NCBI RefSeq assembly: GCF_025972045.1
Contig: NZ_JAPDHX010000003.1
Location: forward strand, 62,001-126,000
DNA length: 64,000 bases
Reading direction: 5' to 3'
From: Micropruina sonneratiae
GTDB taxonomy: Bacteria; Actinomycetota; Actinomycetes; Propionibacteriales; Propionibacteriaceae
Both the position numbers and the translations under genes were made by a program. Shown here piece by piece: positions 857 to 55,986 of the stretch. The notes under the pieces are model-generated. The model was not told where the DNA came from, searched no databases, and saw only the letters and a program-made list of their open reading frames with translations. Each line of letters begins with the position of its first letter. Within the stretch, counting starts at the first letter, position 1.

Positions 857-1666
857 GTGAGCACGACCACCACCGGACAGGGCAACGCCAACCGAACCCG
901 CAACCTCGCCCTGATCGTGATCGGCACCCTGATCGTGCTGGCCACCTACCTGTACCTGGTCATCGCGCAGCCGACGGAACTCGCCGACAACGCCTCGGCG
1001 CCGGCCGGGCTGATCGCGATGGCCGGCTACCTGGTCGGCGCGGTACTGATCGCCGCCGGGTCGATCCACCGGCTCTCCACCGTCACGATCGCGATGGTGC
1101 CGGTGGCGATAGCGCTCAACATCGTCGTCGGGCAGCTGGTCGTCGTGCTGGCCCTGCCGGTCTATCTCGACTCGATCGGCACCGTGCTCATCTCGGTGCT
1201 GGCCGGGCCGGCCGCCGGCGTGGTGACCGGCATCCTGACCAACGTGATCTGGGGGCTGATCCTGAGCCCGTCCGTGTTGCCGTTCGCCGTGGTGCAGGTG
1301 GTCATCGGGCTGATGGCCGGCTACGCCGCCCGCTACGGCATGTTCCGCCGGGTGTGGCTCGCGCCCATCGCCGGCGCCGTCACCGGGGTGGTGGCGGCGA
1401 TGATCTCGGCGCCGATCGCCGCCTTCGTCTTCGGCGGGGTGACCGCGCCCGGCACCGGCGCGCTGGTCGGCATGTTCCAGGCCTGGGGCAACTCGCTGCT
1501 GGCGTCCACCACCTTCCAGGGGTTGCTGTCCGACCCGCTGGACAAGTTGCTGTCGTTCACCGTGGTGGTGCTCATCCTGACCGCGCTGCCGAGCCGGTTC
1601 CTGCAACGGTTCCCGTTCGTCCGCGAGTACCGGGTGTTCCGGCGTCCCGGCGTGAAAGCGGCCTGA
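857..1666 (+). CDS. ECF transporter substrate-specific (S) component
   Basis: This is a predicted 269-residue integral membrane protein with about six hydrophobic segments, the usual size for an ECF S component. The segment LPVYLDSIGTVLISVLAGP, followed by GVVTGILTNVIWG, resembles S components encoded beside nucleoside hydrolases. I chose the GTG at 857 because AGGAGGA lies just upstream; a longer open frame to 527 overlaps the hydrolase out of frame and is spurious. The T and two A components follow directly, so all four subunits are present. A nucleoside or nucleobase substrate is likely from context, but sequence alone cannot decide it. Confidence 0.85.
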   Translation: MSTTTTGQGNANRTRNLALIVIGTLIVLATYLYLVIAQPTELADNASAPAGLIAMAGYLVGAVLIAAGSIHRLSTVTIAMVPVAIALNIVVGQLVVVLALPVYLDSIGTVLISVLAGPAAGVVTGILTNVIWGLILSPSVLPFAVVQVVIGLMAGYAARYGMFRRVWLAPIAGAVTGVVAAMISAPIAAFVFGGVTAPGTGALVGMFQAWGNSLLASTTFQGLLSDPLDKLLSFTVVVLILTALPSRFLQRFPFVREYRVFRRPGVKAA

Positions 1667-1672
1667 GCGGGC

Positions 1673-2452
1673 GTGTCGACGACCCTGTACGTCGAGCGGG
1701 TATCGCCGGTCCACCGGCTGAACCCGGTCACCAAACTGGTGGCGCTGCTGTGCCTGCTGGTGGTGGTGTTCGCCATCGCGCAGTGGTGGGTCGGGGTGGG
1801 GGTGCTGCTGCTGGTGATCGTGCCGGCGGCGGTGGCGTCCGGCTGTGGGGGAGTGCTGGCCGGCTTCGCGCTGCGGCTGCTGCTGCCGGTGCTGGCGATG
1901 CTGGTGCTCGTGCAGGGGCTGACCTACCCGGGCGGGCAGACCGTGCTGTGGGAGTGGGGTCCGCTGGCGCTGACCACCGAAGGGTTGCTGTTCGCGGCGA
2001 CGATCGGTGCGCGGCTGGCGTGCCTGGTGTGCGCGTCGGTGCTGCTGGTGCTGACCACGCACCCCGGCGAGCTGATGTCGGCGCTGACCGAGAAGGGCCT
2101 GTCGCCGAAGTTCAGCTACATCATCTCCTCGACGCTGCAGTTGATCCCGTCGTTCCGCGACCGGGCCGACAGCATCCTGCTCGCGCAGCAGGCCCGCGGC
2201 CTGGCCGTTCCACGCAATCCGCTGCGCCGGCTCGGCGTCCTGATGCCGCTGCTCGGGCCACTCGTGCTGGGCATGTTCACCGACGTCGAAGAGCGGTCGA
2301 CGGCCATGGAGGCGCGCGGTTTCGGCTCGACCGCACGCCGCACGTCGCTGGTGCCGGTGCCCGACACCACGGCCCAGCGGGTGGCGCGCTGGGTGATGCC
2401 GGCCCTGGCCGCGGTGGCGATCGTGGCGCCGTTCGTGTGGGGGTCGCGGTGA
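1673..2452 (+). CDS. ECF transporter transmembrane (T) component, CbiQ family
   Basis: This 259-residue membrane protein is the scaffold that couples the S component to the two ATPases. The N-terminus (VERVSPVHRLNPVTK) is typical of EcfT. The C-terminal half carries the Ala-Arg-Gly coupling motifs: QQARGLAVP near residue 182 and MEARGFGS near residue 214. These sit in the long helices that dock on the ATPases. It starts at a GTG six bases after the S-component stop, which indicates one transcript and probably coupled translation. Confidence 0.9.
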   Translation: MSTTLYVERVSPVHRLNPVTKLVALLCLLVVVFAIAQWWVGVGVLLLVIVPAAVASGCGGVLAGFALRLLLPVLAMLVLVQGLTYPGGQTVLWEWGPLALTTEGLLFAATIGARLACLVCASVLLVLTTHPGELMSALTEKGLSPKFSYIISSTLQLIPSFRDRADSILLAQQARGLAVPRNPLRRLGVLMPLLGPLVLGMFTDVEERSTAMEARGFGSTARRTSLVPVPDTTAQRVARWVMPALAAVAIVAPFVWGSR

Positions 2453-2507
2453 GAGTGCTCACTGCGCTGTGGACCGGGGGGACCGTTCTTCCGTCGGGAG
2501 GTGGCCG

Positions 2508-3362
2508 ATGACTGACCAGGGCTTCGTGGTGCTCGACGACGTCACCTACGCCTACCCGGACGCCGACCGCCCCGTCCTCCACGGCGTCCGGCTCGAGATC
2601 GCGGCCGGGTCGATCACCGGGGTGGTCGGGGCGTCCGGGGCGGGCAAGACCACGCTGGCGAAGCTGATCAGCGGGTTCATTCCGCAGGTGGACGGCGGCG
2701 ACCTCACCGGCACCGTGTCGGTCGGCGGGCGCGATCTGGCCGAGCTGTCGCTGGTCGAGGCGGTCGGTCAGGTCGGCCTGGTCATCCAGAACCCGTTCAA
2801 CCAGATCTCCGGCGCCAAGTACACCGTCCGCGAAGAGATCGCCTTCGGGCTCGAGAACGTCGGCACCCCTCGCGCCGAGATGGCCAAGCGGGTGGACGAC
2901 GTGGCCCGGCTGCTGCGGATCACCGACCTGCTCGACCGCTCGCCGTACGCGCTGTCCGGCGGGCAGATGCAGCTCGTCGCCATCGCCTCGATGCTGGTGC
3001 TGCGCACCCCCGTGCTGGTGATGGACGAGCCCACCTCGCAACTCGACCCGGCAGGCACCCGGCTGGTGTTCGACGTGCTCAACACGCTCGAGGAGGCGGG
3101 CCTGACCGTGATCGTCTTCGAGCACAAGCAGGAGCTGCTGCAGGCCTACGCCGACCGGTTGCTGGTGCTGGCCGGCGGGCGGATCGTCGCCGACGGCGAC
3201 CCGACCACCGTGCTCGCCGACGACCACACCGAAGAGTGGGGGATCGGCGCCACACGCTTCACCCGCGCCGCCCGGATCGCCCGGGATCGCGGGCTGTTGA
3301 ACGGCGGCGTGCTGCCCGTCTCGTTCGAGCAGGCCGTGGAGACGTTCGGGGGCCCGCGATGA
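2508..3362 (+). CDS. ECF transporter ATP-binding protein (first A component)
   Basis: This 284-residue ABC ATPase is one of two energising subunits of the ECF importer. Walker A is GASGAGKTT (residues 41-49), the Q-loop region is VIQNPFNQI, the signature is a canonical LSGGQ (149-153), and Walker B ends in VMDEPTSQLD. I chose the ATG at 2508 because GGGAGG precedes it at the right spacing; the GTG at 2469 has no such support. The stop overlaps the next start by 4 bases (ATGA), so translation of the two ATPases is probably coupled and they likely form a heterodimer. Confidence 0.92.
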   Translation: MTDQGFVVLDDVTYAYPDADRPVLHGVRLEIAAGSITGVVGASGAGKTTLAKLISGFIPQVDGGDLTGTVSVGGRDLAELSLVEAVGQVGLVIQNPFNQISGAKYTVREEIAFGLENVGTPRAEMAKRVDDVARLLRITDLLDRSPYALSGGQMQLVAIASMLVLRTPVLVMDEPTSQLDPAGTRLVFDVLNTLEEAGLTVIVFEHKQELLQAYADRLLVLAGGRIVADGDPTTVLADDHTEEWGIGATRFTRAARIARDRGLLNGGVLPVSFEQAVETFGGPR

Positions 3363-4165
3363 CCGCGGTGCGGTTCGACGGCGTCCGGTTCAGCTACCCG
3401 GGCGGCGTCGAGGCGTTGCGCGGGGTGAGCCTGGCCGTCGCGCCCGGCGAGCGGGTGGCGATCGTCGGCCAGAACGGCGCAGGCAAGACCACCCTGGTGC
3501 GGCACCTGAACGGCATCCACCAGCCCACCGCGGGGGTGGTCACCGTCGGCGACCGGCCCACCACCGGACGCCCGATCGCCGAGCTGGCGGCCCTGGTCGG
3601 CTACGTGTTCCAGAACCCCGACGAGCAGATCTTCGCCTCGACCGTGCTGGCCGACGTCGAGTTCGGGCCGCGCAACCTCGGGGTCACCGGGGCCGAGGTG
3701 ACGACGCGGGCGGTGGAGGCACTGGAGCAGGTCGGGCTGGCCGCGACCGCTCACACCCATCCGATGCATCTGTCCTTGTCCGAGCGCAAACGGGTGGCGC
3801 TGGCGGGAGTGTTGGCGATGTGCACCGACGTCGTGGTGCTGGACGAGCCGACCACCGGCCAGGACGCCCGCGGCGTCGAGTTGGTGGCCGGGGTGGTGGA
3901 GTCGCTGGCGGCCGCGGGCCGGACGGTGATCGCCATCACCCACGACATGGACGTGGCCGCCGAGCATTTCGAGCGGGTGGTGGTGATGGCGCGCGGCGAG
4001 GTGCTCGCCGACGGCCCGCCCGCGGAGGTCTTCGGGCAGGACGACGTGCTGGCCGCCGCGGCGGTCGAGGCGCCGCAGCTCATGCGGCTGGCCGGACGCC
4101 TCGGCTGGCAACGGCGTCCGCTCACCCCGGAGCAGTTCGTGGACGCCTGGCAGGCCGAGCGCTGA
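3359..4165 (+). CDS. ECF transporter ATP-binding protein (second A component)
   Basis: This 268-residue ABC ATPase partners the preceding one. Walker A is GQNGAGKTT (38-46), the Q-loop is FQNPDEQIF (85-92), and Walker B is VVVLDEPTTG (158-167). The signature motif reads LSLSERKR (138-145) instead of LSGGQxxR, so the two glycines are absent; the switch histidine is present (ITHDMD). In a heterodimer this would leave one composite ATP site with a non-consensus signature, as in asymmetric ABC pairs. The start is fixed by the 4-base overlap with the upstream gene. The operon appears to end here. Confidence 0.9.
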   Translation: MTAVRFDGVRFSYPGGVEALRGVSLAVAPGERVAIVGQNGAGKTTLVRHLNGIHQPTAGVVTVGDRPTTGRPIAELAALVGYVFQNPDEQIFASTVLADVEFGPRNLGVTGAEVTTRAVEALEQVGLAATAHTHPMHLSLSERKRVALAGVLAMCTDVVVLDEPTTGQDARGVELVAGVVESLAAAGRTVIAITHDMDVAAEHFERVVVMARGEVLADGPPAEVFGQDDVLAAAAVEAPQLMRLAGRLGWQRRPLTPEQFVDAWQAER

Positions 4166-4201
4166 CGGCCGCGTCCCGCCACACCGCGGCAACCCCGTGC
4201 C

Positions 4202-4207
4202 TAGAAT
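4202..4207 (+). promoter_or_regulatory. Candidate -10 element, leaderless promoter of the DUF3060 lipoprotein
   Basis: TAGAAT matches the TANNNT consensus and ends six bases before the ATG at 4214. Transcription would then begin at or next to the start codon, the usual leaderless arrangement in actinobacteria. No ribosome-binding site is visible. I see no clear -35. Confidence 0.45.
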
Positions 4208-4213
4208 CCGGCC

Positions 4214-4849
4214 ATGAGTCGAACAGCGCCCCGTGCGGCGGGCCTGGCCGGGCTTGGGCTGCTGGTTCTCACCGCCTGCACCGGCACGCCGGCCGCGCCC
4301 CCGACGCCGTCGATCGGGACGCTGGTCTCGACCGCGCGCGCCACCGCGTCGGCCGGCCCGGCGACGGGGACGCCGGACGCCTCGAAGCCGGCCACCTGGG
4401 TGAGCCTCGCCGCGGGCTCGACCACCCAGTGCGAGGCCGGCACCGGCTACGCGATCCACGGCGCCGGCGACTACTGGCTGACCGGAGACTGCGACGCGGT
4501 GAGCCTCAGCGCCGACGGCAGCGACGTCGAGAGTGCCGGACCGATCGCCGTGCTTACCGTGCAGGGCGACAACAACGACGTGGACGCCAGGGCGGTCGCC
4601 GCGCTCAAGGTGAGCGGTGACGGCAACGACCTCGAGACCGACGACGTGACCAACGGCTCTGTCTCCGGTCAGGACAACGACCTGTCGCTGACCAGCGCCA
4701 ATGCGCTGCTGGTGAACGGCGATCACAACAGCTTCGAGGTCGAGACGCGGATCGGCCTGCTCACCATCAACGGCAACGACAACGAGGTCGAAGCGCAGAG
4801 CATCGAGAAGCGCGACGTGGTCGGCGACGGCAACCGGATCACCCCGTAG
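4214..4849 (+). CDS. DUF3060-type secreted lipoprotein
   Basis: This is a predicted 211-residue cell-surface lipoprotein of unknown role. An N-terminal signal peptide ends in the lipobox LTAC (Cys about residue 23), followed by a Thr/Ala/Pro-rich linker. The rest consists of short repeats with the pattern GDNNDV, GDGNDL, GQDNDL, GDHNSF, GNDNEV, spaced about 20 residues apart. This pattern is typical of DUF3060 and suggests a small parallel beta-helix. The start has a leaderless-type -10 just upstream. It is convergent with pdxT; a nested palindrome lies between them. Confidence 0.82.
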   Translation: MSRTAPRAAGLAGLGLLVLTACTGTPAAPPTPSIGTLVSTARATASAGPATGTPDASKPATWVSLAAGSTTQCEAGTGYAIHGAGDYWLTGDCDAVSLSADGSDVESAGPIAVLTVQGDNNDVDARAVAALKVSGDGNDLETDDVTNGSVSGQDNDLSLTSANALLVNGDHNSFEVETRIGLLTINGNDNEVEAQSIEKRDVVGDGNRITP

Positions 4850-4887
4850 CAGCAGGTCGTCCCCGGCGACCCGGGCAGGGGCGTGGT

Positions 4888-4957
4888 GACGTTGCGCGCC
4901 TGCGGACCCGTTGCGGCTGTTGCAACACCCGCAACGTGACCGGACGCGCGCAATGTC
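4888..4957. repeat. Nested intergenic palindrome between convergent genes
   Basis: The outer arms are 4888-4899 and 4946-4957 (11 of 12 complementary). They enclose a 26-base near-perfect palindrome at 4910-4935 that starts GTTGCGG and ends CCGCAAC. It fills the space between two convergent genes and could act as a bidirectional terminator or be a copy of a repetitive extragenic element. No T-tract follows. Confidence 0.6.
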
Positions 4958-4964
4958 GCGAGGG

Positions 4965-5573
4965 TCAGCCGGCGGCCCGGGCCAGGGCGACGAAGGCGGC
5001 GTGGACGCGGGGGTCGCCCCCCATCTCGGGGTGGAAGGCGGTGGCCAGCAGGTTGCCCTGCCGGACGGCCACCACGTGCCGGGCGCCGTCCGGACGCGGC
5101 ACGCTCGCCAGCACCTCGACGTCCGGCCCGCACCCGACCACCTCGGGCGCCCGAATGAACACCGCCCGGAAGGCGCCGCCGGCGGGCCAGCCGGAATCGA
5201 GGTCGGCCTCGAACGAGTCGGTCTGGCGTCCGAACGCGTTGCGCCGCACGGTGACATCGAGGCCGCCGAAGGTCTGCTGGTCTGCCGGGGCGTCGACGAG
5301 CCGGTCGGCCAGCATGATCATGCCCGCGCACGATCCGAAGGCGGGCAGGCCGGCTCGCAGCGCCGCGACCAGCGGCTCGCGCAGGTCGAAGGCGCGGGCC
5401 AGCTTGTCGATGGTGGTGGACTCGCCGCCGGGGATGACCAGCCCGGCCAGCCCGTCCAACTCGGCCGGACGCCGCACCGGTCGCGGCAACGCCCCGCAGG
5501 CGGTCAGCGCCGCAACGTGCTCGCGGACGTCGCCTTGCAGGGCGAGGACGCCGACGACGGGCGCCGCCGTCAC
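4965..5573 (-). CDS. pdxT: Pyridoxal 5'-phosphate synthase glutaminase subunit PdxT
   Basis: This 202-residue class-I glutamine amidotransferase releases ammonia from glutamine and passes it to PdxS for PLP synthesis. The oxyanion-region motif PGGESTT is at about 48-54, the nucleophile Cys82 lies in FGSCAGM, and the remaining triad is His181 and Glu183 in FHPEMGGDP. The length matches the family. It lies downstream of pdxS on the same strand, 94 bases away, as expected for partners of the 12+12 synthase complex. Confidence 0.96.
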
Positions 5574-5667
5574 CGGGGCTCCCGGAGTGGGGCGGGCGGT
5601 AGGGATCCCGGGGCGAGCTCGGGATGACGAAGGGCGCCTGAGCGACCACCACCGCCCCGGACGGTGC

Positions 5668-6585
5668 TCACCAACCGCGTTCGGCGAGCCGGTGCGGCTC
5701 GGGGACGTCCTCGACGTTGATGCCCACCATCGCCTCGCCGAGGCCGCGCGACACCTGGGCGATGACGTCCGGGTCGTCGTAGAAGGTGGTCGCCTTGACG
5801 ATCGCGGCGGCCCGTTGCGCCGGGTTGCCGGACTTGAAGATGCCCGAGCCGACGAACACGCCCTCAGCGCCGAGCTGCATCATCATCGCCGCGTCGGCCG
5901 GGGTGGCGATGCCGCCGGCGGTGAACAGGACCACGGGCAGCTTGCCGGTCTCGGCCACCTCGCGGACCAGCTCGTAGGGCGCCTGCAGCTCCTTGGCCGC
6001 GACGTACAGCTCGTCGGCGGGCAGCGACGACAGCCGGCGCAGTTCGGCGCGGATCTGCCGCATGTGGGTGGTCGCGTTCGAGACGTCCCCGGTGCCGGCC
6101 TCGCCCTTCGAGCGGATCATCGCCGCCCCCTCGGTGATCCGCCGCAGCGCCTCGCCCAGGTTGGTCGCGCCGCACACGAACGGCACCGTGAACTGCCACT
6201 TGTCGATGTGATGGGCGTAGTCGGCGGGGGTGAGCACCTCGGACTCGTCGATGTAGTCGACGCCCAGCGCCTGCAGCACCTGCGCCTCGACGAAGTGCCC
6301 GATCCGCGCCTTGGCCATCACCGGAATGGTGACCGCCGAGACGATGCCGTCGATCAGGTCCGGGTCGCTCATCCGCGCGACGCCACCCTGAGCCCGGATG
6401 TCGGCCGGCACCCGCTCCAGCGCCATCACGGCGACGGCGCCGGCGTCCTCGGCGATCTTCGCCTGCTCGGCGGTGACCACATCCATGATCACGCCGCCCT
6501 TGAGCATCTCGGCCATGCCCCGCTTCACCCGCGAGGTGCCGGTCTGCGCGGCGCCGTTCGCCTGCGGGGTGGTGGTTGCTGTCAT
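5668..6585 (-). CDS. pdxS: Pyridoxal 5'-phosphate synthase subunit PdxS
   Basis: This 305-residue (beta/alpha)8 synthase condenses ribose 5-phosphate, glyceraldehyde 3-phosphate and ammonia into PLP (DXP-independent pathway). Key parts are visible: Asp35 in GGVIMDVV, the Schiff-base lysine Lys92 in [10 protein letters not shown], and [15 protein letters not shown] Gly-rich phosphate loop ([12 protein letters not shown]) and the [10 protein letters not shown] segment follow. The roughly 20-residue N-terminal extension rich in Thr/Gln is normal for actinobacteria. GGAAGG lies upstream of the ATG, and a -10-like CATAAT lies about 27 bases upstream. Confidence 0.97.
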
Positions 6586-47890: not shown

Positions 47891-47919
47891 GCGCCGTTGG
47901 CGTGCGTCGCCATCGGCGC
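47891..47919 (+). terminator. Candidate expression-platform hairpin after the FMN aptamer
   Basis: A near-perfect 12-pair stem (GCGCCGTTGGCG with CGCCATCGGCGC, T-T mismatch) holds a 5-base loop, beginning eight bases after the aptamer. It could end transcription or shut the ribosome-binding site when FMN is bound. The next start codon is 50 bases farther. No T-tract follows. Confidence 0.55.
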
Positions 47920-47968
47920 ACCCTGCCGCGCCGACCCCCGGTCCACGAACGGAACCGGAGGACATGTG

Positions 47969-48733
47969 ATGAGGCGGCTGAACCCGAGGCACCGGCGCGT
48001 GATCGCGCCGATGCTGTTGGGTGTCGTGCTGCTCGGGCTGTGGTCGCTGGCCGCCGCCGTCGCGTCGCCGGTGCTGCTGCCGGGACCGGCGCGGGTGCTG
48101 GCCCGGCTCTGGACGGACGCCACCGCCGGCACGCTGTGGCCATACCTGGCCGTCACCCTCGCCGAAGCGCTCGGTGGCTGCCTGCTGGGCGCCGTGGTGG
48201 CACTGCCGCTGGCGGTGGCGATCCATCGCTCGGCCTGGTTCTCCGACGCGGTCCAACCGTTCCTCGGCGCCACCCAGGCCATTCCGGCGATCGCCCTGGC
48301 GCCGCTGCTCGTGCTGTGGATCGGCTACGGACTGGTGCCCGTGGTGCTGCTGTGCGCGCTGATCGTCTTCTTCCCGATCCTGGTCGCCGCCGTGGTGGGG
48401 TTGCGGATGGCCCCGCGCGAGCTGTCGGACGCCGCCCGGCTCGACGGCGCCGGCAGCCTCGCCCTGCTGCGGCACATCGAGGCGCCGCTGGCCCTGCCGT
48501 CACTGCTGGGCGGCTTCAAGAACGGCTTCGCGCTGAGCGTGACCGGTGCGGTGGTGGGCGAGATGGTGATGGGCGGCGCCGGCCTGGGCACCGTGCTGAC
48601 CGTGCAGCGCGATGCGGTCGACACCACCGGCATGTTCGCCACCATCGCCTGGCTGTGCCTGATCGCCGCCGGCGCCTATTCGCTGATCACCTGGTGGGAG
48701 CGCCGCTCCGCCATCGTCGAGTCGCTGACCTGA
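47969..48733 (+). CDS. ribX: ABC transporter permease, predicted riboflavin importer
   Basis: This 254-residue membrane protein has about six transmembrane segments. The ABC-permease EAA-type loop reads LSDAARLDGAGSLALLRHI, and IPAIALAPLLVLWIGYG is the segment seen in SsuC/ThiX/TauC-type importers. The ATG at 47969 has GGAGG upstream. The FMN riboswitch directly upstream and the NMT1-type binding protein downstream make this the RibX of a RibXY riboflavin importer. No ATPase gene is next to it, so an ATPase elsewhere must serve. The symbol is by analogy. Confidence 0.85.
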   Translation: MRRLNPRHRRVIAPMLLGVVLLGLWSLAAAVASPVLLPGPARVLARLWTDATAGTLWPYLAVTLAEALGGCLLGAVVALPLAVAIHRSAWFSDAVQPFLGATQAIPAIALAPLLVLWIGYGLVPVVLLCALIVFFPILVAAVVGLRMAPRELSDAARLDGAGSLALLRHIEAPLALPSLLGGFKNGFALSVTGAVVGEMVMGGAGLGTVLTVQRDAVDTTGMFATIAWLCLIAAGAYSLITWWERRSAIVESLT

Positions 48734-48744
48734 GGAGAAGACCG

Positions 48745-49764
48745 ATGCATCGCCGAACCTTCCTGGCCGCCGCCCTCGCCCTGGCCGCTGCGGGGTGCAG
48801 CACCGGTGCCGGCGCGACGACCGCCCCCGCGAGTGGGACGCCGTCCGCCCCGACCGGCGCGGCCCGGGCGGTGATCGGGCTGAGCTACATCCCCAACGTG
48901 CAGTTCGCCCCGTTCTACGTGGCCGAGGAGCAGTCGCTGTTCAGCGGCGTCCCGGCCACCGTCAGCCTGCGCCACCACGGCTCCACCGAGGGATTGTTCA
49001 CCGCGCTCACCGCCGGCACGGAGGATTTCCTGGTCGCGGCCGGCAGCGAGGCCATGCAGGCTCGCGCCGAAGGGGTCGACGTGATCGCGGTCGGCGCCTA
49101 CTACAAGGCGTTCCCGGTGCAGGTGATCGTGCTGGACGGCTCGCCCATCGACGACCTGTCCGGGTTGAAGGACCGCTCGCTCGGCGTGCCCGGGCGCTAC
49201 GGCGAGTCGTGGCTCGCCGCCCAACTGGCCCTCGCCACCGCTGGGCTCACCGAGGACGACGTGAAGATCGTCGAGGTCGGCTACACCCAGGTGGCGGCGC
49301 TGACCACCAAGAAGGTCGACGCCATCGTCGGCTTCCGCAACAACGAACTCGTCCAGCTCGAGCAGGCGGGCACCGCGGCCCGGGCGATCGACGTCGCCCC
49401 CGGCACCGTTCCGCTGGTCAGTGCCAGCCTGCTCACCACGAAGGCGTACGCGCAGGCCAACCCCGACGTCGTGCGCGCCGTCGTCGCCGCCACCGACCGC
49501 GCCATCGAGGCGACGGCCGCTGACCCGGACGCCGCCGTCGACGCCGCGGCGAGCCGGATCCCGGGCTGGACGGAGGAATCCAGGCCGAACACCACCGCCG
49601 TGCTGGCCGCCACCCTGCAGGTGATGGCACTCGACGGCGGCCGCTTCGCCTCGGCGCTTGACCCCGCGCAGTGGCAGGCGATGGCGTCCTTCCTGGAGGA
49701 GCACGACCTGATCGCGGCGCCGGTCACGGCCACGGACGCCTTCAGCAACGACTACACGGCCTGA
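48745..49764 (+). CDS. ribY: NMT1/THI5-type substrate-binding lipoprotein, predicted riboflavin binding
   Basis: This 339-residue protein starts with a signal peptide and lipobox (ALALAAAGC) and then has the NMT1/THI5 fold. Recognisable parts are IGLSYIPNVQFAPFYVAEEQ, LFTALTAGTEDFLVAAGSEA, GRYGESWLAAQLAL and VDAIVGFRNNE. This group includes thiamine-pyrimidine, sulfonate and riboflavin binders. It starts 11 bases after the permease stop with GAGGAGA upstream, under the same FMN riboswitch, so flavin is the likely ligand. Confidence 0.88.
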   Translation: MHRRTFLAAALALAAAGCSTGAGATTAPASGTPSAPTGAARAVIGLSYIPNVQFAPFYVAEEQSLFSGVPATVSLRHHGSTEGLFTALTAGTEDFLVAAGSEAMQARAEGVDVIAVGAYYKAFPVQVIVLDGSPIDDLSGLKDRSLGVPGRYGESWLAAQLALATAGLTEDDVKIVEVGYTQVAALTTKKVDAIVGFRNNELVQLEQAGTAARAIDVAPGTVPLVSASLLTTKAYAQANPDVVRAVVAATDRAIEATAADPDAAVDAAASRIPGWTEESRPNTTAVLAATLQVMALDGGRFASALDPAQWQAMASFLEEHDLIAAPVTATDAFSNDYTA

Positions 49765-49852
49765 GGAGTGCGGGCGCCGGCACCTCGCCCCGGCCGACCG
49801 GCTCGCGCTGGAATCGCTATGGCCCCGGTGGCAGTATGACTCCATGAAGGAC

Positions 49853-49874
49853 GCGCAGTGGGGGGTCACTGCGC
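49853..49874. other. Hairpin in the gap before the sensor kinase
   Basis: An 8-base stem (GCGCAGTG with CACTGCGC) with a GGGGGT loop lies in the 192-base gap between ribY and the kinase. It may end the ribXY transcript or be an operator for the kinase gene. The rest of this gap shows nothing else that I can name. Confidence 0.35.
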
Positions 49875-49956
49875 CTGCCCCGACGGCTGCGCCGCACAGT
49901 GGTGACGCCTTCGCCCCACCCCGGCTGCGCGGGGCCCGCGCGTTGCGAGCCGCCCC

Positions 49957-52227
49957 GTGACGGTGAGCGGCGCAACCCTGACGAAGTCCGCGGGGCACCT
50001 GGGCCGGGCCGATCCCACCCGGGGCGCCAGTGCTGCCGGGCTGCGGCTGTGGCTGGCCCGCGCCGTCGCGATGACCTGCCTCGCCACCCTGGTTCCGGCC
50101 CTGTTCATGGCGCTGGGGCAGGTGCCCGACCTGCACCCGATCTGGCTCGTCGTGGTGGGCGGCGGCATCGTCGGATTCACCCTGCTGATGCCGCTGTACG
50201 CCTGGTCGCTGGGCGATGTCCGCTGGTTGTGCGGCGCCTACGCCCTCGTCACGCTGCTGGGCCTGGCCACCTGGGTGTGGGCCTGGACCAGTACCACCAA
50301 GGCGACCGAGGGCCCCTGGTTATGGATGTGCCTGGGCATCGCGGCAGTGTGTGCGGCGATGGCGACCACGGTGCCCGTCGGCTTCGTCTACACCGTGGTG
50401 GCGGCGATCACGTTCGGCTTCGTCCGTCTCACCCCGGCCGGCGGCGCGGTGGAGCCCCTGGAGGCCGTCCAGGACGTGCTGACCCTGCTCGTGCTGCCGA
50501 CCGCGTTGCTACTGCTCATCCAGTTCTTCGCCACCGCCGTCGATGAGCTGGACGCCACCACGGCCGAATCGCAGCGGGTCGAGGCCGACCGGGCGATCGA
50601 CCGTGCCCTCAGCAGCCAGCGGGCGATGCTGGACGGCATCATCCATGACCGTGTGATGACGACCCTGGTGACTGCGGTGCAGACCGACCAGCCCCGCAGC
50701 GAGGTCGCCGAACTGGCCGGTGCCGCCCTGGACACGCTGGCCGAGGCGGGCGCCCCGACCGATTCCGGCCAGCCGCTGTCGCCCCACCAGCTCGCCCGGC
50801 TGATCGAGGACATGGTCGAGCCGGTCTGCCCGCAGGCCGAGGTCGAGCTCGATTCGGCGGGGGAGGGCTTCACGGTCAACCCGAACGTGGCCAGCATCCT
50901 CGGCCAGGCCTGCCGTGAGGCGGCGCTGAACGTGACCCGGCACGCCGAGGCCGAGAACGTCACGATCGGCATCTCGGCCCGGGTGGTCAACGGGGACCAG
51001 TCGCTGCGGGTCGACATCAGCGACGACGGCAAGGGCTTCGACCCGACCGACGTGCCCGAGAACCGCTTCGGCATCCGGGTGTCGATGACCGAGCGGATGC
51101 GAAGCATCGGCGGCACCGTCGACATCGATTCGGCGCCGGGCAAGGGCACCGTCGTCAGGTTGCGGTGGAGCGGCCAGACCGAGCGGCCACGGACACCGAT
51201 CTCGCGGCGGCGGGCGTCCGAGGCGCTGCGCTCGGTGCTGCGGGTCGAGCTGTTCCTGTTCCTGGTCTGGCTGGTGGTCGGCGTGCAGGTGCTGGTCGGG
51301 TTGATCTCGACGTTGTCGGCGTCCGACCCGGTGCCGGTGCTGGTCGCCCAGGGGGTCGCGATCATCGCGACCGGGATCGCCCTGCACCGCTCGGGTGAGC
51401 GGGTGATCACCACGCTCGAAGCGGGGCTGGTGGTGTTCTGCCTGACGACCGTCACCCACCTGATGTACGCGGTGCTGCGCGAGGGTTCGATGCCCAGCTA
51501 CGCGACCTGGCACTACTCGGTGGTGATGGTGCTGCTGATCGCCGTGCTGGTCCGTGGCCAACGGACCGCCGCGTGGGTGGGGCTGGCGATCTTCCTGGTG
51601 CAGTCGATCGTGTGGTCGGTGCAGACCGACCAGGGTCCCTACCAGTTGATGGACGTCGTCTTCGGGCCAGTGCTGTGGGTCACCCTGGCGACGTTGGTGA
51701 TGCGCGGCCTGCGCTCGATCGGTGAGCAACTGGTCCGGGTGCGCAGCACGTCGCGGGAGAACACCCACGCGATGGCCGACAGCTTCTCCAAACTGGTGCT
51801 GCGCGAGGTGTGGCTCACCCAGTTGCGCGAGCAGATCGGGCCGTTGCTGCAGAACCTGGCCGATCCGAACCATCAACTGAGCGCGCAGGAGCGGGACGCG
51901 TGCCGCATCCTCGAGGGTCGCCTGAGGGATGCGTTGCGGGCCGGCAACCTCGTGTCACAAGGAGTTTCGGATGCCATCCAGGCCGCTCGAGGACGCGGTG
52001 TCGAGGTGGTGCTGGTGGACAACCGGGGCTCGCGGCTGCCCGAACCCGTGCGGCTGGCCACCCTGCGACGGCTGGAGCAGCTCGTCCGTACCTCGACCGG
52101 TGGCCGGATCGTCGCCAGGACGGCCCCCGAGGGGTACGCCGACGCGGTCACCATCCTGCAGGTCGACGCGGAGCGTAACCTCACTACCATTGACGAGGCC
52201 GGCACCGTGACAGTGAGGAAGACATGA
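49957..52227 (+). CDS. Sensor histidine kinase with doubled membrane/kinase-like architecture
   Basis: This 756-residue protein has five hydrophobic segments (about 33-193), then a helical dimerisation region. The candidate phospho-acceptor His230 is in GIIHDRVMTTLV. A GHKL ATPase follows with an N-box in ACREAALNVTRH (Asn325), G1 box DISDDGKGF (about 354-361) and a G2-like FGIRVSMTERM. Unlike most kinases it then continues with six more hydrophobic segments (about 418-590). After these comes a roughly 160-residue cytoplasmic end with helices (LTQLREQIGPLLQN) and weak ATPase-like strands (EVVLVDNRGSRLP). The GTG start is tentative. It overlaps its response regulator by 4 bases. The signal is unknown. 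Confidence 0.8.
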   Translation: MTVSGATLTKSAGHLGRADPTRGASAAGLRLWLARAVAMTCLATLVPALFMALGQVPDLHPIWLVVVGGGIVGFTLLMPLYAWSLGDVRWLCGAYALVTLLGLATWVWAWTSTTKATEGPWLWMCLGIAAVCAAMATTVPVGFVYTVVAAITFGFVRLTPAGGAVEPLEAVQDVLTLLVLPTALLLLIQFFATAVDELDATTAESQRVEADRAIDRALSSQRAMLDGIIHDRVMTTLVTAVQTDQPRSEVAELAGAALDTLAEAGAPTDSGQPLSPHQLARLIEDMVEPVCPQAEVELDSAGEGFTVNPNVASILGQACREAALNVTRHAEAENVTIGISARVVNGDQSLRVDISDDGKGFDPTDVPENRFGIRVSMTERMRSIGGTVDIDSAPGKGTVVRLRWSGQTERPRTPISRRRASEALRSVLRVELFLFLVWLVVGVQVLVGLISTLSASDPVPVLVAQGVAIIATGIALHRSGERVITTLEAGLVVFCLTTVTHLMYAVLREGSMPSYATWHYSVVMVLLIAVLVRGQRTAAWVGLAIFLVQSIVWSVQTDQGPYQLMDVVFGPVLWVTLATLVMRGLRSIGEQLVRVRSTSRENTHAMADSFSKLVLREVWLTQLREQIGPLLQNLADPNHQLSAQERDACRILEGRLRDALRAGNLVSQGVSDAIQAARGRGVEVVLVDNRGSRLPEPVRLATLRRLEQLVRTSTGGRIVARTAPEGYADAVTILQVDAERNLTTIDEAGTVTVRKT

Positions 52228-52886
52228 CCGATTCGCCCACCATCCGGACCGCGATCATCGACGATCACGAAGCGATCCGGCTGGGCGTCGGCGCCGCCCT
52301 GGAGCAGCACGCCGGCAACAGGGTCGAGGTGGTCAGTTCGCACGAGAACGTGGACGAGTTCCTGGCCGACGACGTCGACGCCGACGTGGTGATGCTCGAC
52401 CTGTCGCTGGGTGACGACTCCGACCCCAAGGACAACGTCGAGAAGCTGGCCGAGCGCGGCTACCGCATCCTGGTCTACTCGATCGCCGACAACATGCGGC
52501 TGGTGCGCCGGGCGCTGGCGGGGGGCGCGGACGGGGTGTGCCGCAAGGCCGAGCCGATCGCCCAGACCATCGAGGCGCTGGAGGCGGTCGCCAACGGCCA
52601 GATGGTGCTGTCGCAGGAGATTCTGGGCGCCATCGAGTCCGACACCAGTTACGTCGCGGCCCAGCTCGGCCCGCGCGAGAAGCAGGTCCTGTCGCTCTAC
52701 GTGGCCGGGTTGGAGATCCCCGAGGTCGCGGGCACGCTCTACATCACCGAGAACAGCGTGAAGGAGTACCTCAAGCGCATCCGGGTCAAGTACACCCAGG
52801 TGAACCGTCCGGCCAACAACAAGCTCGAACTGTTCCGCCGGGCGATCGAGGACGGCATCATCCCCCCGGTCGAGCGCCGCAACTAG
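52224..52886 (+). CDS. LuxR/NarL-family response regulator
   Basis: This 220-residue protein has a receiver domain (acidic pair Asp13/Asp14, phospho-acceptor Asp59 in VVMLDLSLGD, Ser in LVYSIAD, Lys in CRKAEP). A C-terminal LuxR-type helix-turn-helix follows (about 150-205; LGPREKQVLSLYVAGLEIPE then SVKEYLKRIR). It starts inside the kinase stop (ATGA), so the two form a two-component pair. Targets are unknown; the secreted transglycosylase-like gene and the men genes nearby are only positional candidates. Confidence 0.93.
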   Translation: MTDSPTIRTAIIDDHEAIRLGVGAALEQHAGNRVEVVSSHENVDEFLADDVDADVVMLDLSLGDDSDPKDNVEKLAERGYRILVYSIADNMRLVRRALAGGADGVCRKAEPIAQTIEALEAVANGQMVLSQEILGAIESDTSYVAAQLGPREKQVLSLYVAGLEIPEVAGTLYITENSVKEYLKRIRVKYTQVNRPANNKLELFRRAIEDGIIPPVERRN

Positions 52887-52930
52887 TCACACCTACCGCG
52901 CGACGACGTCCGGTCCCGCCTGGGGACGGC

Positions 52931-53605
52931 TCAGTACCAGCCGTGGCCGGCCTTGAAGGCCCAGGCCTGGCACGGCGTCCCGTAGGTGCTCTTGATGTAC
53001 TTCAGCCCCCACTTGATCTGCGTCACGGGGTTCGTCCGCCAGTCGGCACCCTCGCTGGCCATCTTCGAGCCGGGCAACGCCTGCGGGATGCCGTAGGCGC
53101 TCGACGTCGGGTTGTCGGCGTTCCACTGCCACTGCGACTCCTGCGTCCAGATCTTGTTGACGCAGGTGAACTGGTCCTTGCCCCAGTGGTGTGCGCTGAG
53201 CATGATCTGCTTCGCGATGTCCTTGGGATCGGACGTCTTGGGGTCGTAGCCGAGCCGCTTCACCTTCTCGGCGTAGCGCAGCTTCTTCTCAGCCGCGGCG
53301 CGCTGCTTCACGAAGTCGCTGACCTGGAGCGACCGCTCGCGGGCGGCGATGTCGGCCTCGGTCCTGCTCAGTGCCGCCTCACGCCGGGCCGCGGCGTTGA
53401 CCACGTCGGGCAGCAGGGCGGGGCGAGCGTCGTCTCGGGAGGCCTCGGAGTCGCGGTCGACGGGCGGGGTCGAAGCCGCGTCCACCTCCACCGGCCGCTG
53501 GGGATGCGCCACCGGCGCGGTCGCGAAACCGGTCGCCAGGCACAGCGCGGCGGCAGCCGCCAGCGCGGGACGGACGAGAAAGGGCACCCGACGAGGGTGC
53601 CACAT
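52931..53605 (-). CDS. Secreted lytic-transglycosylase-like (aggregation-promoting-factor type) protein
   Basis: This 224-residue protein has a signal peptide (PALAAAAALCLATGFATA), a charged helical region (about 70-130; ARREAALSRTEADIAARERS), and a C-terminal lysozyme-like domain. That domain has KIWTQESQWQWNADNPTS (candidate catalytic Glu in TQES), AYGIPQALPG and a final CQAWAFKAGHGWY. This matches transglycosylase-like APF proteins that act on peptidoglycan. It is convergent with the response regulator. Confidence 0.87.
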   Translation of the reverse strand: MWHPRRVPFLVRPALAAAAALCLATGFATAPVAHPQRPVEVDAASTPPVDRDSEASRDDARPALLPDVVNAAARREAALSRTEADIAARERSLQVSDFVKQRAAAEKKLRYAEKVKRLGYDPKTSDPKDIAKQIMLSAHHWGKDQFTCVNKIWTQESQWQWNADNPTSSAYGIPQALPGSKMASEGADWRTNPVTQIKWGLKYIKSTYGTPCQAWAFKAGHGWY

Positions 53606-53683
53606 GATTGATGTTAAGGAAAATCTCAGGTGTCTCCTGGCCGGCTGACCGCTCGGGGTGGGTGTCGGGAGTGGCCCACTGGG

Positions 53684-53700
53684 GGCCGTCGAGGCCCCGC
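53684..53700 (-). terminator. Candidate terminator hairpin after the PLDc_N gene
   Basis: GGGGCC and GGCCCC pair around a GTCGA loop, 32 bases past the stop of the small membrane protein. It is short, with no T-tract, so this is a tentative call. Confidence 0.4.
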
Positions 53701-53731
53701 GGTGACGGTCCGCCGAGCCGCACGTCGCGGG

Positions 53732-53977
53732 TCAGAGCCCGCGCAGGAAGTCCGGATCGTCGTCGGGGGCACGCGGTCGCTTGGGTGGCGGCTGGGTCCG
53801 CAGCGGACGTCCGGCGACCAGCCAGGCGATGGCGCCCAGTCCGGGCAGCAGAATGATCAGCGCCACCCACAGCCAGCGCGGCAGCGCGCGCACCCGGTCG
53901 GGGTCGGCCTGGGCGACCTCGATCAGGCAGTAGATGACCAGCAGTGCGAGCAGCACCACCGGCAGGATGCGCGGCAT
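53732..53977 (-). CDS. Small membrane protein with a PLDc_N-type domain
   Basis: This 81-residue protein has two transmembrane segments (LPVVLLALLVIYCLIEVAQA and WLWVALIILLPGLGAIAWLV). The RVRALPRWLWVALIIL and PGLGAIAWLVAGRP pattern is typical of the PLDc_N (cardiolipin synthase N-terminal) domain, here standing alone. The C-terminus is Pro/Arg/Asp-rich and cytoplasmic. It diverges from menE with only 35 bases between starts. Function is unknown. Confidence 0.85.
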   Translation of the reverse strand: MPRILPVVLLALLVIYCLIEVAQADPDRVRALPRWLWVALIILLPGLGAIAWLVAGRPLRTQPPPKRPRAPDDDPDFLRGL

Positions 53978-53983
53978 GCGCCC

Positions 53984-53989
53984 AATCTA
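53984..53989 (-). promoter_or_regulatory. Candidate -10 of the PLDc_N gene, leaderless
   Basis: The minus strand reads TAGATT six bases before the ATG at 53977, matching TANNNT. It lies within 17 bases of the opposing menE -10, so the two promoters overlap back to back. Confidence 0.45.
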
Positions 53990-54000
53990 CCCGCCGACAG

Positions 54001-54006
54001 TAGGGT
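54001..54006 (+). promoter_or_regulatory. Candidate -10 of menE, leaderless
   Basis: TAGGGT ends six bases before the GTG at 54013, with no ribosome-binding site. The arrangement fits a leaderless transcript starting at the menE codon. Confidence 0.45.
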
Positions 54007-54012
54007 GAAAAC

Positions 54013-55107
54013 GTGGGTACGGAGCTGATCGCCGGCGCCGACGTGGTGCCCGGCGTCGCCGAGGTGCTGGCCGGTGGCCCCGGCGTCGCCGTGGTGGCCG
54101 ACCCGGCGTCGGTCCCCGCGGGCTGGCGCCTGGAGACCGAGCCGCTCGGCGACGACATCGGCGTGCTGATCGGCACCTCGGGCTCGACCGGCGACCCCAA
54201 GGGCGTCCTGCTCACCCGGGAAGCGATCCGAGCCTCCGCCGAGGCCCTGCACGCCCGGCTCGGCGGGGCGGGGGACTGGGTCTGCCCGCTGCCGCTGCAC
54301 TACGTGGCCGGCATGATGACCGCGGCCCGCGCCGCCGTCGCCGGCAGCCGGGCGAGCGTGGTGGCGTCCGACCTGTCGGAGCTGCCGCTGGGCAGCGGCC
54401 GCAACTACGTCTCGGTCGTCGCAGCGCAACTGCATCGGGCACTCGAGTCTGCCTCCGCCACCCGCGCGCTGGCCGGGTTCGACGCCGTCGTCGTGGGCGG
54501 CTCGGCGGTGCCTGCCGAGCTGCTGCGCCGGGGCCGGGACGCCGGCCTCGCCCTGGTCACCAGCTACGGCATGGCCGAGACCTGCGGTGGCTGCGTCTAC
54601 GACGGCGTCCCGCTGGAGGACGTCCGGGTCGACCTCGCCGCCGCCGCGCGGATCGAGATCACCGCGCCCGGCGTGTTCTCCGGCTACCGACTCGATCCGG
54701 ACGCCACGGCGTCGGCCCTGGTCGTGGGCCCGGCGGGGCGAACCCTGCGCACCCAGGACCGGGGCAGCTGGTCCGGGGGGCGGCTGCAGGTGCTGGGGCG
54801 CATCGACGAGGTGGTGATCACCGGCGGGCTGAACGTCGACCTTGGCCTGGCCCAGCGCACCGTCGACGACGAGTTCGGGCCGGGCGCCGTCGCGCTGCTG
54901 GGCGTCCCCGACCCGCGGTGGGGCACCCGGATCGTGGCCGTTGCCGAGGCCGACCTCACCGTGGCCGACCTGCGCTCCCGGCTGGCCGGACGCCTCGAGC
55001 CGGCTGCGCTGCCGCGCGAGCTGCGCCGGGTCGCTGGCCTGCCCCGAACGTCCACTGGCAAGATCGACCGGGCGAGCCTGCGCCGGTTGTGGGCCGAAGG
55101 GAGCTGA
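54013..55107 (+). CDS. menE: o-Succinylbenzoate-CoA ligase
   Basis: This 364-residue adenylate-forming enzyme activates o-succinylbenzoate with CoA in menaquinone synthesis. It carries the P-loop IGTSGSTGDPKGVLLT (about 54-69), VTSYGMAETCGGCVYDG, the hinge GRIDEVVITGGLNVDL and the catalytic lysine in RTSTGKIDRASL. It is shorter than the usual 450-500 residues, as in other actinobacterial MenE, because the N-terminal subdomain is reduced. It leads the men operon: menA begins on the next base. Confidence 0.93.
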   Translation: MGTELIAGADVVPGVAEVLAGGPGVAVVADPASVPAGWRLETEPLGDDIGVLIGTSGSTGDPKGVLLTREAIRASAEALHARLGGAGDWVCPLPLHYVAGMMTAARAAVAGSRASVVASDLSELPLGSGRNYVSVVAAQLHRALESASATRALAGFDAVVVGGSAVPAELLRRGRDAGLALVTSYGMAETCGGCVYDGVPLEDVRVDLAAAARIEITAPGVFSGYRLDPDATASALVVGPAGRTLRTQDRGSWSGGRLQVLGRIDEVVITGGLNVDLGLAQRTVDDEFGPGAVALLGVPDPRWGTRIVAVAEADLTVADLRSRLAGRLEPAALPRELRRVAGLPRTSTGKIDRASLRRLWAEGS

Positions 55108-55986
55108 GTGGCCAGTCCGAGTCAATGGCTGGAGGGCGCCCGTCCGCGCACCCTGCCGGCGGCGGTCTCGCCGGTGCTCGCCGGCACCGGCCTGGCCTGG
55201 TTCGAGGGCGCCTTGTCGGCCGGGTCGGCGGTGTTGTGCCTGGTGGTCGCCCTGTCGCTGCAGATCGGCGTGAACTTCGCCAACGACTACTCCGACGGCA
55301 TCCGCGGCACCGACGCACAGCGGGTCGGCCCGATGCGGCTGGTCGGTTCGGGCGCGGCCTCCCCGGGCAGCGTGAAGGCGGCCGCGTTCGCGTGCTTCGC
55401 CGTCGCGGCCCTGGCCGGGCTGGGCATCGTGCTGATCACCGGCATGTGGTGGCTGCTGCTGGTGGGTGCGGCGGCGATCGCCGCGGCCTGGTTCTACACC
55501 GGCGGGCGGCGTCCGTACGGCTACCTGGGGCTGGGTGAGGTGTTCGTCTTCGTCTTCTTCGGCCTGGTCGCGGTGGGCGGCACCGTGCTGGTCCAGGTGG
55601 GCGGGACACCCCCGGCGACCTGGGCGGCGGCGGTGGCGGTGGGCGCGCTGGCCTGCGCCATCCTGGTCGCCAACAACCTGCGTGACCTGACCGGGGACTC
55701 CGCGGCCGGCAAGCGCACCCTGGCCACCCGGCTCGGCGACCGGCGCACCCGCTGGTTCTTCGTCGTTCTGGTCGCCGCCGCGATGGCCGCAGTGGTGCTG
55801 GTCGCCTTCGCCACGACGCCGTGGGCCCTGTTGGGCCTGGTCGCGCTGGTGGCGCTGGCCGGTCCGTGTCGCGAGGTGCTCGCCGGCGGCACCGGCCGAT
55901 CGCTGATCGGCGTGCTGAAGCTGGTCGGACTGGGTGAGCTGGTGGCCTCTGCCGGCCTCGCCCTCGGCCTGGTGATCGGCGCCTGA
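55108..55986 (+). CDS. menA: 1,4-dihydroxy-2-naphthoate polyprenyltransferase
   Basis: This 292-residue UbiA-family membrane enzyme joins a polyprenyl chain to DHNA. The Mg-prenyl-diphosphate motif is NFANDYSDGIRGTD (about 53-66), and the second Asp-rich region is NNLRDLTGDSAAGKRTLATR. About nine hydrophobic segments are present. The start PSQWLEGARPRTLPAAVSPV is typical. The GTG at 55108 immediately follows the menE stop, and the stop overlaps menC by one base. Confidence 0.95.
   Translation: MASPSQWLEGARPRTLPAAVSPVLAGTGLAWFEGALSAGSAVLCLVVALSLQIGVNFANDYSDGIRGTDAQRVGPMRLVGSGAASPGSVKAAAFACFAVAALAGLGIVLITGMWWLLLVGAAAIAAAWFYTGGRRPYGYLGLGEVFVFVFFGLVAVGGTVLVQVGGTPPATWAAAVAVGALACAILVANNLRDLTGDSAAGKRTLATRLGDRRTRWFFVVLVAAAMAAVVLVAFATTPWALLGLVALVALAGPCREVLAGGTGRSLIGVLKLVGLGELVASAGLALGLVIGA

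Follow-up and report, generated by a model that had tools for sequence, protein, structure and literature searches.

A membrane histidine kinase joined in one chain to a pseudokinase duplicate in Micropruina sonneratiae, a probable two-subunit sensor

Histidine kinases ordinarily act as homodimers. The literature already describes histidine pseudokinases and a heterodimeric kinase pair. In group A Streptococcus, FasB and FasC, two kinases with six transmembrane (6TM) helices each, heterodimerize and serve one response regulator (RR), as reported in PMC12675982. The mammalian membrane adenylyl cyclases are described as pseudo-heterodimers whose 6TM progenitor was duplicated and fused (PMC9552081), with transmembrane helices 6 and 12 extending into a coiled coil (PMC9433096). 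Here, a gene of Micropruina sonneratiae is compared with these systems. It lies in a 64,000-nucleotide stretch of contig NZ_JAPDHX010000003.1 (positions 62,001 to 126,000), referred to as the window, and encodes a fused histidine kinase and pseudokinase of 756 residues from a GTG start codon (49957..52227, + strand; open reading frame (ORF) call, Pfam and AlphaFold2 model). On the balance of the evidence, the protein is probably a two-subunit sensor kinase in one chain, composed of an active 6TM kinase and an ancient 6TM pseudokinase duplicate, with the two halves pairing. Among the papers listed in a literature search, with length-limited listings and subscription journals mostly outside it, none describes this family or reports a fusion between an active kinase and its dead duplicate.

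The first, or N, half of the protein (residues 24–408) is a 6TM membrane histidine kinase in which the catalytic residues are present. In the full-chain AlphaFold2 model, built from 42 sequences (mean predicted local distance difference test score (pLDDT) 85.2, predicted template modeling score 0.70), the first membrane module (approximately residues 24–190; 50026..50526, +) contains five transmembrane helices, 24–53, 61–84, 89–104, 123–136 and 139–157, and a putative sixth can be read off the start of the long helix 167–242. The lower part of this helix and helix 247–265 belong to the modeled dimerization and histidine phosphotransfer (DHp) domain (residues 200–265; 50554..50751, +), which carries the phospho-acceptor H230 (50644–50646). 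The catalytic ATP-binding (CA) domain (residues 276–408; 50782..51180, +) contains N325, D356, G358 and G360, adopts an ATPase fold at residues 276–406, and is assigned from its invariant residues, its likeness to VraS and a Pfam HATPase_c match (PF02518, residues 313–404, 42.8 bits against a cut-off of 26.4). The aligned set of 80 N halves, to which the window protein belongs, keeps H230 in 79 rows, and D231, N325, H329, D356, G358, G360 and G372 are conserved in all 80. The CA domain is nearest to VraS (4gt8, Z score 14.9, 122 residues, root mean square deviation (rmsd) 2.7), DevS and DesK. A Pfam scan of the full sequence gives no HisKA_3 (PF07730) match at an expectation value (E) ≤ 1, and the N half is therefore left outside HisKA_3, despite its VraS/DevS/DesK-like CA domain and the NarL-type RR encoded beside it. 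The closest named models in NCBIfam are of the MacS, MctS and NarQ type, which describe single kinases and are matched far below their cut-offs (NarQ 59 of 553 bits, MacS 57 of 300; residues 33–403).

The second, or C, half repeats this plan. A fusion junction at residues 409–429 (51181..51243, +), modeled with low confidence (pLDDT < 50 at 409–421), leads into the second membrane module (approximately residues 430–583; 51244..51705, +), which is the fastest-evolving part of the protein and is modeled as helices 430–452, 458–476, 486–507, 518–532 and 536–557. A long helix, 561–635, and helix 643–661 follow, from which a DHp-like domain is delimited by profile match and alignment (residues 594–661; 51736..51939, +). 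In this domain, R624 occupies the position of H230, and a histidine is found in that column in 1 of 80 C rows. The remainder is a degenerate CA-like domain (residues 664–756; 51946..52224, +), which is devoid of the N box, the DxGxG motif, the lid and the last helix. It is predicted to consist of helix 668–679, strand 683–688, helix 696–712 and strands 717–722, 729–736, 740–746 and 751–755, an order of elements that we read as a truncated ATPase fold. The two halves are related by an offset of approximately 394 residues, such that the long helix 167–242 corresponds to 561–635 and helix 247–265 to 643–661, with the transmembrane helices corresponding likewise. When the second half is modeled alone from 64 sequences, the same elements recur at a pLDDT of 90.7. 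Within the C family, R657 and R678 are invariant (80 of 80 each), and D658 (77), G681 (77), R680 (75), E653 (74) and R721 (70) are also conserved. These arginines are candidates for clamping the CA-like domain or for binding either an anionic ligand or the RR.

Profile comparison of the N and C families with hhalign (92 rows each; 60 window shuffles and a reversed sequence as controls) indicates that the halves are homologous. Whole halves align with a probability of 98.5% (E = 3e-15, score 116), with the shuffles scoring at most 68 (none of 60 as high) and the reversed control 37. The cytoplasmic parts by themselves align with a probability of 93.7% (E = 2e-7, score 49; shuffles at most 24, none of 60 as high; reversed 12), and this match runs collinearly for 141 columns, starting at the histidine helix and reaching the DxGxG region. 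With narrower, closer rows, the whole halves are again significant (86.7 versus a shuffle maximum of 61.3). In addition, HMMER weakly links the families, in that the C profile matches the N-type kinase of locus L194 along most of its length (E = 7e-5) and the membrane part of a DUF5931-domain kinase (L198, E = 1e-6), and the N profile matches two C proteins (E = 4e-5 and 8e-5). Sequence and models together support the second half as a duplicate of the kinase half that has lost activity, and by sequence it is classed as a histidine pseudokinase, in which homology to a kinase is retained and the catalytic motifs are gone.

An alternative, which we regard as very improbable, would give the C-terminal domain a fold unrelated to kinases or no more than a coiled coil. 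The Foldseek and domain-scan nulls given below could be taken in its favor. The cytoplasmic part alone, compared in the narrower sets of 42 and 64 rows, gives a probability of 2.7–3.4% and a score of 21.2, with 2 of 60 shuffles scoring higher; direct BLASTP of the N against the C cytoplasmic region of the window protein detects no similarity (best E 2.6); and Foldseek of the C-half model alone returns no PDB match at E ≤ 0.001, the best being BceS (E = 0.073), with the PhoQ CA domain at rank 4 and AgrC at rank 12. Alignments of the C half with VIA-align are mostly to transmembrane-bundle look-alikes and designed proteins, and include the AgrC kinase at Z 6.2 on residues 214–335. Pfam gives only sub-cut-off matches to the second half of the window protein, and scans of 64 C halves at E ≤ 1 yield no Pfam family in more than 5 members and no NCBIfam family in more than 6. 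Among the families listed for these 64 members (25 of 48 in Pfam, 25 of 34 in NCBIfam), no kinase-domain family is present, HATPase is absent from the Pfam families, and the sole kinase-related match is the ArcB transmembrane domain in one member. Matches to haloacid dehalogenase (HAD) hydrolases in 5 of the 64 C halves (best E 0.0076; YidA, E = 0.013) were rejected, as they cover a short helix–strand motif and lie below the cut-off. Against an unrelated fold stand the collinear profile match to the kinase half, which runs from the transmembrane helices to the DxGxG region, and the predicted element order of a truncated ATPase fold at a pLDDT of approximately 90; the full-chain prediction contains neither an unrelated C-terminal domain nor a coiled coil only.

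These results can be set against the original prediction, made from the DNA letters and their translations. The ORF that it delimited, 49957–52227, is recovered exactly, on the + strand and with 756 residues. The complete kinase core that it described (H230, N325 and DDGKG, D356–G360) is present, with these residues conserved in 79–80 of 80 N rows and a HATPase_c match, and it does lie between two multi-helix membrane regions, seen in the model as helices 24–157 and 430–557. Its degenerate second kinase-like end is borne out by the repeated plan of elements and by a profile match beyond the shuffled and reversed controls for the whole halves and, in the wider set of rows, for the cytoplasmic part too, and its proposal of an internal duplication with an inactive second half agrees with the collinear homology of the transmembrane, DHp and CA profiles, with the models and with the loss of the catalytic residues.

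Loss of catalytic residues is accompanied by strong conservation of the C half. Relative to the four closest orthologues (L004–L007), the C cytoplasmic part is 84–90% identical, the active core 65–74% and the second membrane module 41–62%. Of 41 comparisons with the window, 31 show higher conservation in the C cytoplasmic part than in the active core, and over all 861 pairs of 42 sequences the mean identity of the C cytoplasmic part is 42.2% versus 38.7% for the core, with C higher in 561. The ratio of nonsynonymous to synonymous substitution (dN/dS) was estimated by the Nei–Gojobori method for four domains of the window protein versus L003–L007, where L003 is from Micropruina sp. isolate SSC1 and the same ORF is found in a second genome of the genus (G111, L008). 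Versus L004–L007, the values are 0.08–0.20 for the C cytoplasmic part, 0.32–0.47 for the N cytoplasmic part, 0.25–0.32 for the first membrane module and 0.55–1.2 for the second (residues 428–560). Versus the more distant L003, they are 0.32, 0.54, 0.52 and 0.89, respectively. In these comparisons, none of the other three domains is under purifying selection as strong as that on the C cytoplasmic part.

That the second half is a functionless, decaying remnant of a tandem duplication is scarcely credible on these values. The catalytic motifs are gone, as decay would have it, yet the cytoplasmic dN/dS lies below that of the active core (L004–L007), residues are invariant in 80 of 80 rows, and a kinase gene is fused or adjacent in all 79 places examined below. 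A sensing or regulatory role of the second half would fit its strong sequence conservation. The second membrane module (window 51244–51705) evolves near neutrality, next to a cytoplasmic domain under strong constraint. This juxtaposition would suit a sensor that varies while its transmitter stays fixed, and the module itself is possibly a diversifying sensor.

The RR gene (52224..52886, +) begins four bases inside the end of the kinase gene, overlapping its stop codon, and encodes a NarL-type protein with a receiver and a LuxR-type DNA-binding domain. Both D59 and K108 of the receiver are present; in the alignment, 70 of the 73 rows have the phospho-acceptor D59 and 71 have K108, with gaps in the others.

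Relatives of the system were surveyed in genomes at several taxonomic ranks, and because the searches scored the best four to six candidates per genome, the genome counts are lower bounds. The C half is present in at least 46 of 391 genomes of the order (single-sequence C query), 44 of these 46 being within the window's family, and in at least 14 of 396 genomes of the phylum (C-profile query; own genome included); full-length-query matches are found in at least 48 of 198 genomes of the family. Seventy-nine places with a C half were read, many of them from the full-length query, which is biased to fused genes, in addition to those from the order and phylum surveys, which used the C half only. 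The C half is fused to an N half in 49 of these places, is a separate gene beside an N gene in 30, and is never without an N half; the split N and C genes mostly overlap by a few bases. In five places, the C ORF extends upstream across the N gene in another frame, with the N gene present. The set excludes the window itself (L001), L008, duplicates (L097–L102), kinases without a C half (L002 and L096), short loci of places covered otherwise (L033–L062 and L103–L119) and contig-end fragments (G143, G153:C134 and G156). An RR is encoded on the same strand within the locus in 72 of the 79 places, the usual gene order being RR–N–C in split systems and N–C–RR in the window's clade. Several genomes hold two to four such N/C systems. 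Six loci (L189, L191, L192, L196, L202 and L208) contain longer fused ORFs of 766–943 residues, with no RR found in the fetched stretch. At L079 (positions 1243–5889, – strand; genome G124), two fused kinase/pseudokinase genes stand in tandem, with no same-strand RR found in the stretch.

The histories of the two halves run in parallel. The N tree and the C tree, each built from 80 halves, have 35 of 37 starred branches in common in both directions, with no starred conflicts, and the N and C path distances correlate with r = 0.88 over 56 dereplicated rows (maximum of 1000 permutations, 0.16). For 23 rows from multi-system genomes, the nearest out-of-genome neighbor is identical in both trees for 15. 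When 14 outgroup kinases from three genomes are added, selected for HisKA_3, a domain missing from the window kinase, and including no N-type kinases that have no C half, the 80 C-partnered kinases all fall on one side of a branch with a Shimodaira–Hasegawa-like approximate likelihood ratio test (SH-aLRT) value of 99. Since the second half is a separate neighboring gene in many relatives, the duplication probably predates the fusion. The fused or split state requires at least four to five changes on the trees, of which the starred branches force one to two, and parsimony on this label gives no direction of gain versus loss.

Structural comparison of the full model suggests a possible arrangement of the two halves. 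The best PDB alignments of this predicted, mostly helical model are to the mammalian membrane adenylyl cyclases AC8, AC9 and AC5, which account for 11 entries at ranks 1–11 (Z 16.0–18.7, rmsd 4.5–6.6, 338–411 residues). By analogy with the adenylyl cyclase pseudo-heterodimers, the kinase and pseudokinase halves are inferred to pair likewise. Pfam and NCBIfam searches with the full sequence match no cyclase family at E ≤ 1, and with no class III cyclase domain match the protein is not a cyclase. A match of the C profile to AC5 (E = 0.0024) was not taken as homology, as presenilin is matched at E = 0.0019 with the full profile.

The two-subunit reading builds on the layout of the protein, on homology between its halves, on the missing catalytic residues, on the stronger conservation of the dead cytoplasmic domain among close orthologues and on the abutting of the split genes, as far as sequence and prediction establish them. 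On this basis, a kinase half and a pseudokinase half would pair in place of a symmetric kinase homodimer, and the long helices would run side by side beneath two 6TM bundles, as in membrane adenylyl cyclases. A unit would then contain a single histidine and a single ATP site. Sensing would involve the variable second membrane module, and the constrained pseudokinase domain, which could not itself signal, would hold or release the kinase domain. The kinase would then phosphorylate H230 and, in turn, D59 of the adjacent NarL-type regulator.

A number of observations weigh against this arrangement. The side-by-side placement comes from a single AlphaFold2 model without inter-domain error values. 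The match to adenylyl cyclases spans mainly residues 19–601 of the model, with both membrane modules and the upper long helices, and stops short of the cytoplasmic domains. Common arrangement takes mostly helical models to a best Z of approximately 14, a level that 18.7 exceeds by a modest margin. The AC5 profile match and the Foldseek and narrow-set profile nulls given above belong here as well. In distant paralogues (e.g., L074, L079 and L084), the order of conservation is reversed, with the core above the C cytoplasmic part, and therefore the stronger conservation of C is a property of the orthologue group. Many of the 79 places came from the full-length query, with its bias to fused genes. 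A same-strand RR was not found in 7 of the 79 places within the stretch examined. N-profile matches occur in at least 220 of 296 genomes of the class at E ≤ 1e-25, and among 20 N-profile loci picked by hand from the longer list, none of them among the 79 places, a C half is present in 12, six of which are the longer fusions listed above, and none was detected in 8. Lastly, in two-hybrid assays of Corynebacterium glutamicum ChrS, as summarized in PMC9491836, heterodimers are reported with native ChrS and not with the truncated pseudokinase.

Two chains could instead homodimerize through their active N halves, as ordinary histidine kinases do, leaving the C half as an appended sensor or an allosteric brake beside the dimer. 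The N half contains everything required for this, and the N-type kinases without a detectable C half in 8 of the 20 chosen loci agree with it. We nevertheless hold it to be rather unlikely, in that a long DHp-like helix and a second helix also exist in the C half, spaced as in N, the separate genes stay adjacent in 30 of 30 split places, and the predicted fold resembles the adenylyl cyclase pseudo-dimer. A further possibility, similar to DivL, is that the RR or its phosphorylated form docks on, or is read out by, the pseudokinase domain, which then feeds back on the kinase. This possibility is compatible with the pairing of kinase and pseudokinase and finds a precedent in DivL (PMC4211667) and support in the invariant arginines and in the peak of conservation in the C cytoplasmic domain among close orthologues; it appears distinctly unlikely, as the C half is kept in the 7 places without a same-strand RR in the stretch examined and in the six longer fusions without an RR found.

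The neighborhood of the gene offers a faint indication of what might be sensed. Upstream are genes for an ABC (ATP-binding cassette) permease (47897..48733, +), a syntenic neighbor with nearest models SaoP, SsuC and TauC, all below cut-off, and for an ABC substrate-binding protein (48730..49764, +), matched by the SsuA family model with 86.6 bits, under its cut-off of 163.5. The permease gene is upstream in 12 of 16 loci compared and menA is downstream in 10 of 16, where several loci (e.g., L006 and L007) are too short to contain menA. The order ABC permease–histidine kinase–RR–menA (window 47897–55986) is kept in other genera (L087–L089 and L098–L102); in L098, L100 and L102, an aggregation-promoting-factor-like gene and menE sit between the RR gene and menA. 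In the window, a gene for a protein with an aggregation-promoting-factor C-terminal domain (52931–53605, – strand; NF052397, 121.5 bits, cut-off 40) faces the RR gene. The conserved neighbors weakly hint at an SsuABC-like uptake system as the context of the signal.

The contributions of individual protomers in histidine kinase dimers are hard to dissect because the two protomers are identical chains. In a naturally fused kinase that has a live half and a dead one, and in its split-gene relatives, either half can be altered on its own. On a plasmid of Gordonia sp. 135, genes annotated "response regulator," "ATP-binding protein" and "hypothetical protein" stand in a row, and on plasmids of Rhodococcus qingshengii and Pseudarthrobacter psychrotolerans the same last two genes follow a helix-turn-helix or LuxR-type gene. 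The row of regulator, kinase and pseudokinase is thus plasmid-borne in Rhodococcus, Gordonia and Pseudarthrobacter (L209, L210 and L211). In all three records, the pseudokinase gene is the "hypothetical protein" behind the "ATP-binding protein," and so a three-gene signaling system may be hidden in actinobacterial genomes. The occurrence of the two halves as separate neighboring genes in other bacteria points to an overlooked kind of two-part sensor.

Of the described systems, FasBCA would be the closest working analogue, compared here by description and not by sequence. Similar to the present family, it comprises two 6TM kinase-like partners and one co-transcribed RR (PMC12675982); here, such partners are clustered, with an N half adjacent or fused in 79 of 79 C places and a same-strand RR in 72 of 79. 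FasB and FasC differ in being separate proteins, both with recognizable DHp and HATPase domains, and H246 of FasC is reported to be required while its kinase domain is dispensable (PMC12675982). In the window protein, in contrast, one half carries both the histidine and the ATPase, the other has neither, and the halves are fused. RocA of group A Streptococcus is likewise a 6TM histidine-kinase-like pseudokinase, which interacts with the active kinase CovS; it is described as an unfused accessory protein, a form of which works without a CA domain when overexpressed (PMC7028121), whereas the CA-like domain here lies within the most conserved part among close orthologues. In C. glutamicum, which is also an actinobacterium, an inactive ChrS promotes signaling via a paralogous active kinase, but this form is described as a laboratory frameshift mutant and not an evolved partner gene (PMC9491836). 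DivL of Caulobacter is a histidine kinase repurposed for regulation; unlike the C half, its output domain senses the phosphorylation state of an RR, and the protein is described as having PAS domains and as unfused to an active kinase (PMC4211667). The mammalian membrane adenylyl cyclases place two 6TM halves with long helices in one chain (PMC9552081, PMC9433096), an arrangement predicted by the model for the window protein, but their output domains are cyclases and they contain no histidine kinase, making the likeness a structural analogy and not a family relation. It is tentatively proposed that the window protein belongs to an unnamed class of actinobacterial active/dead kinase pairs, fused, possibly several times, into a pseudo-heterodimer in which the dead half would be the most constrained regulatory surface, and which could be a counterpart of the mammalian membrane adenylyl cyclases.

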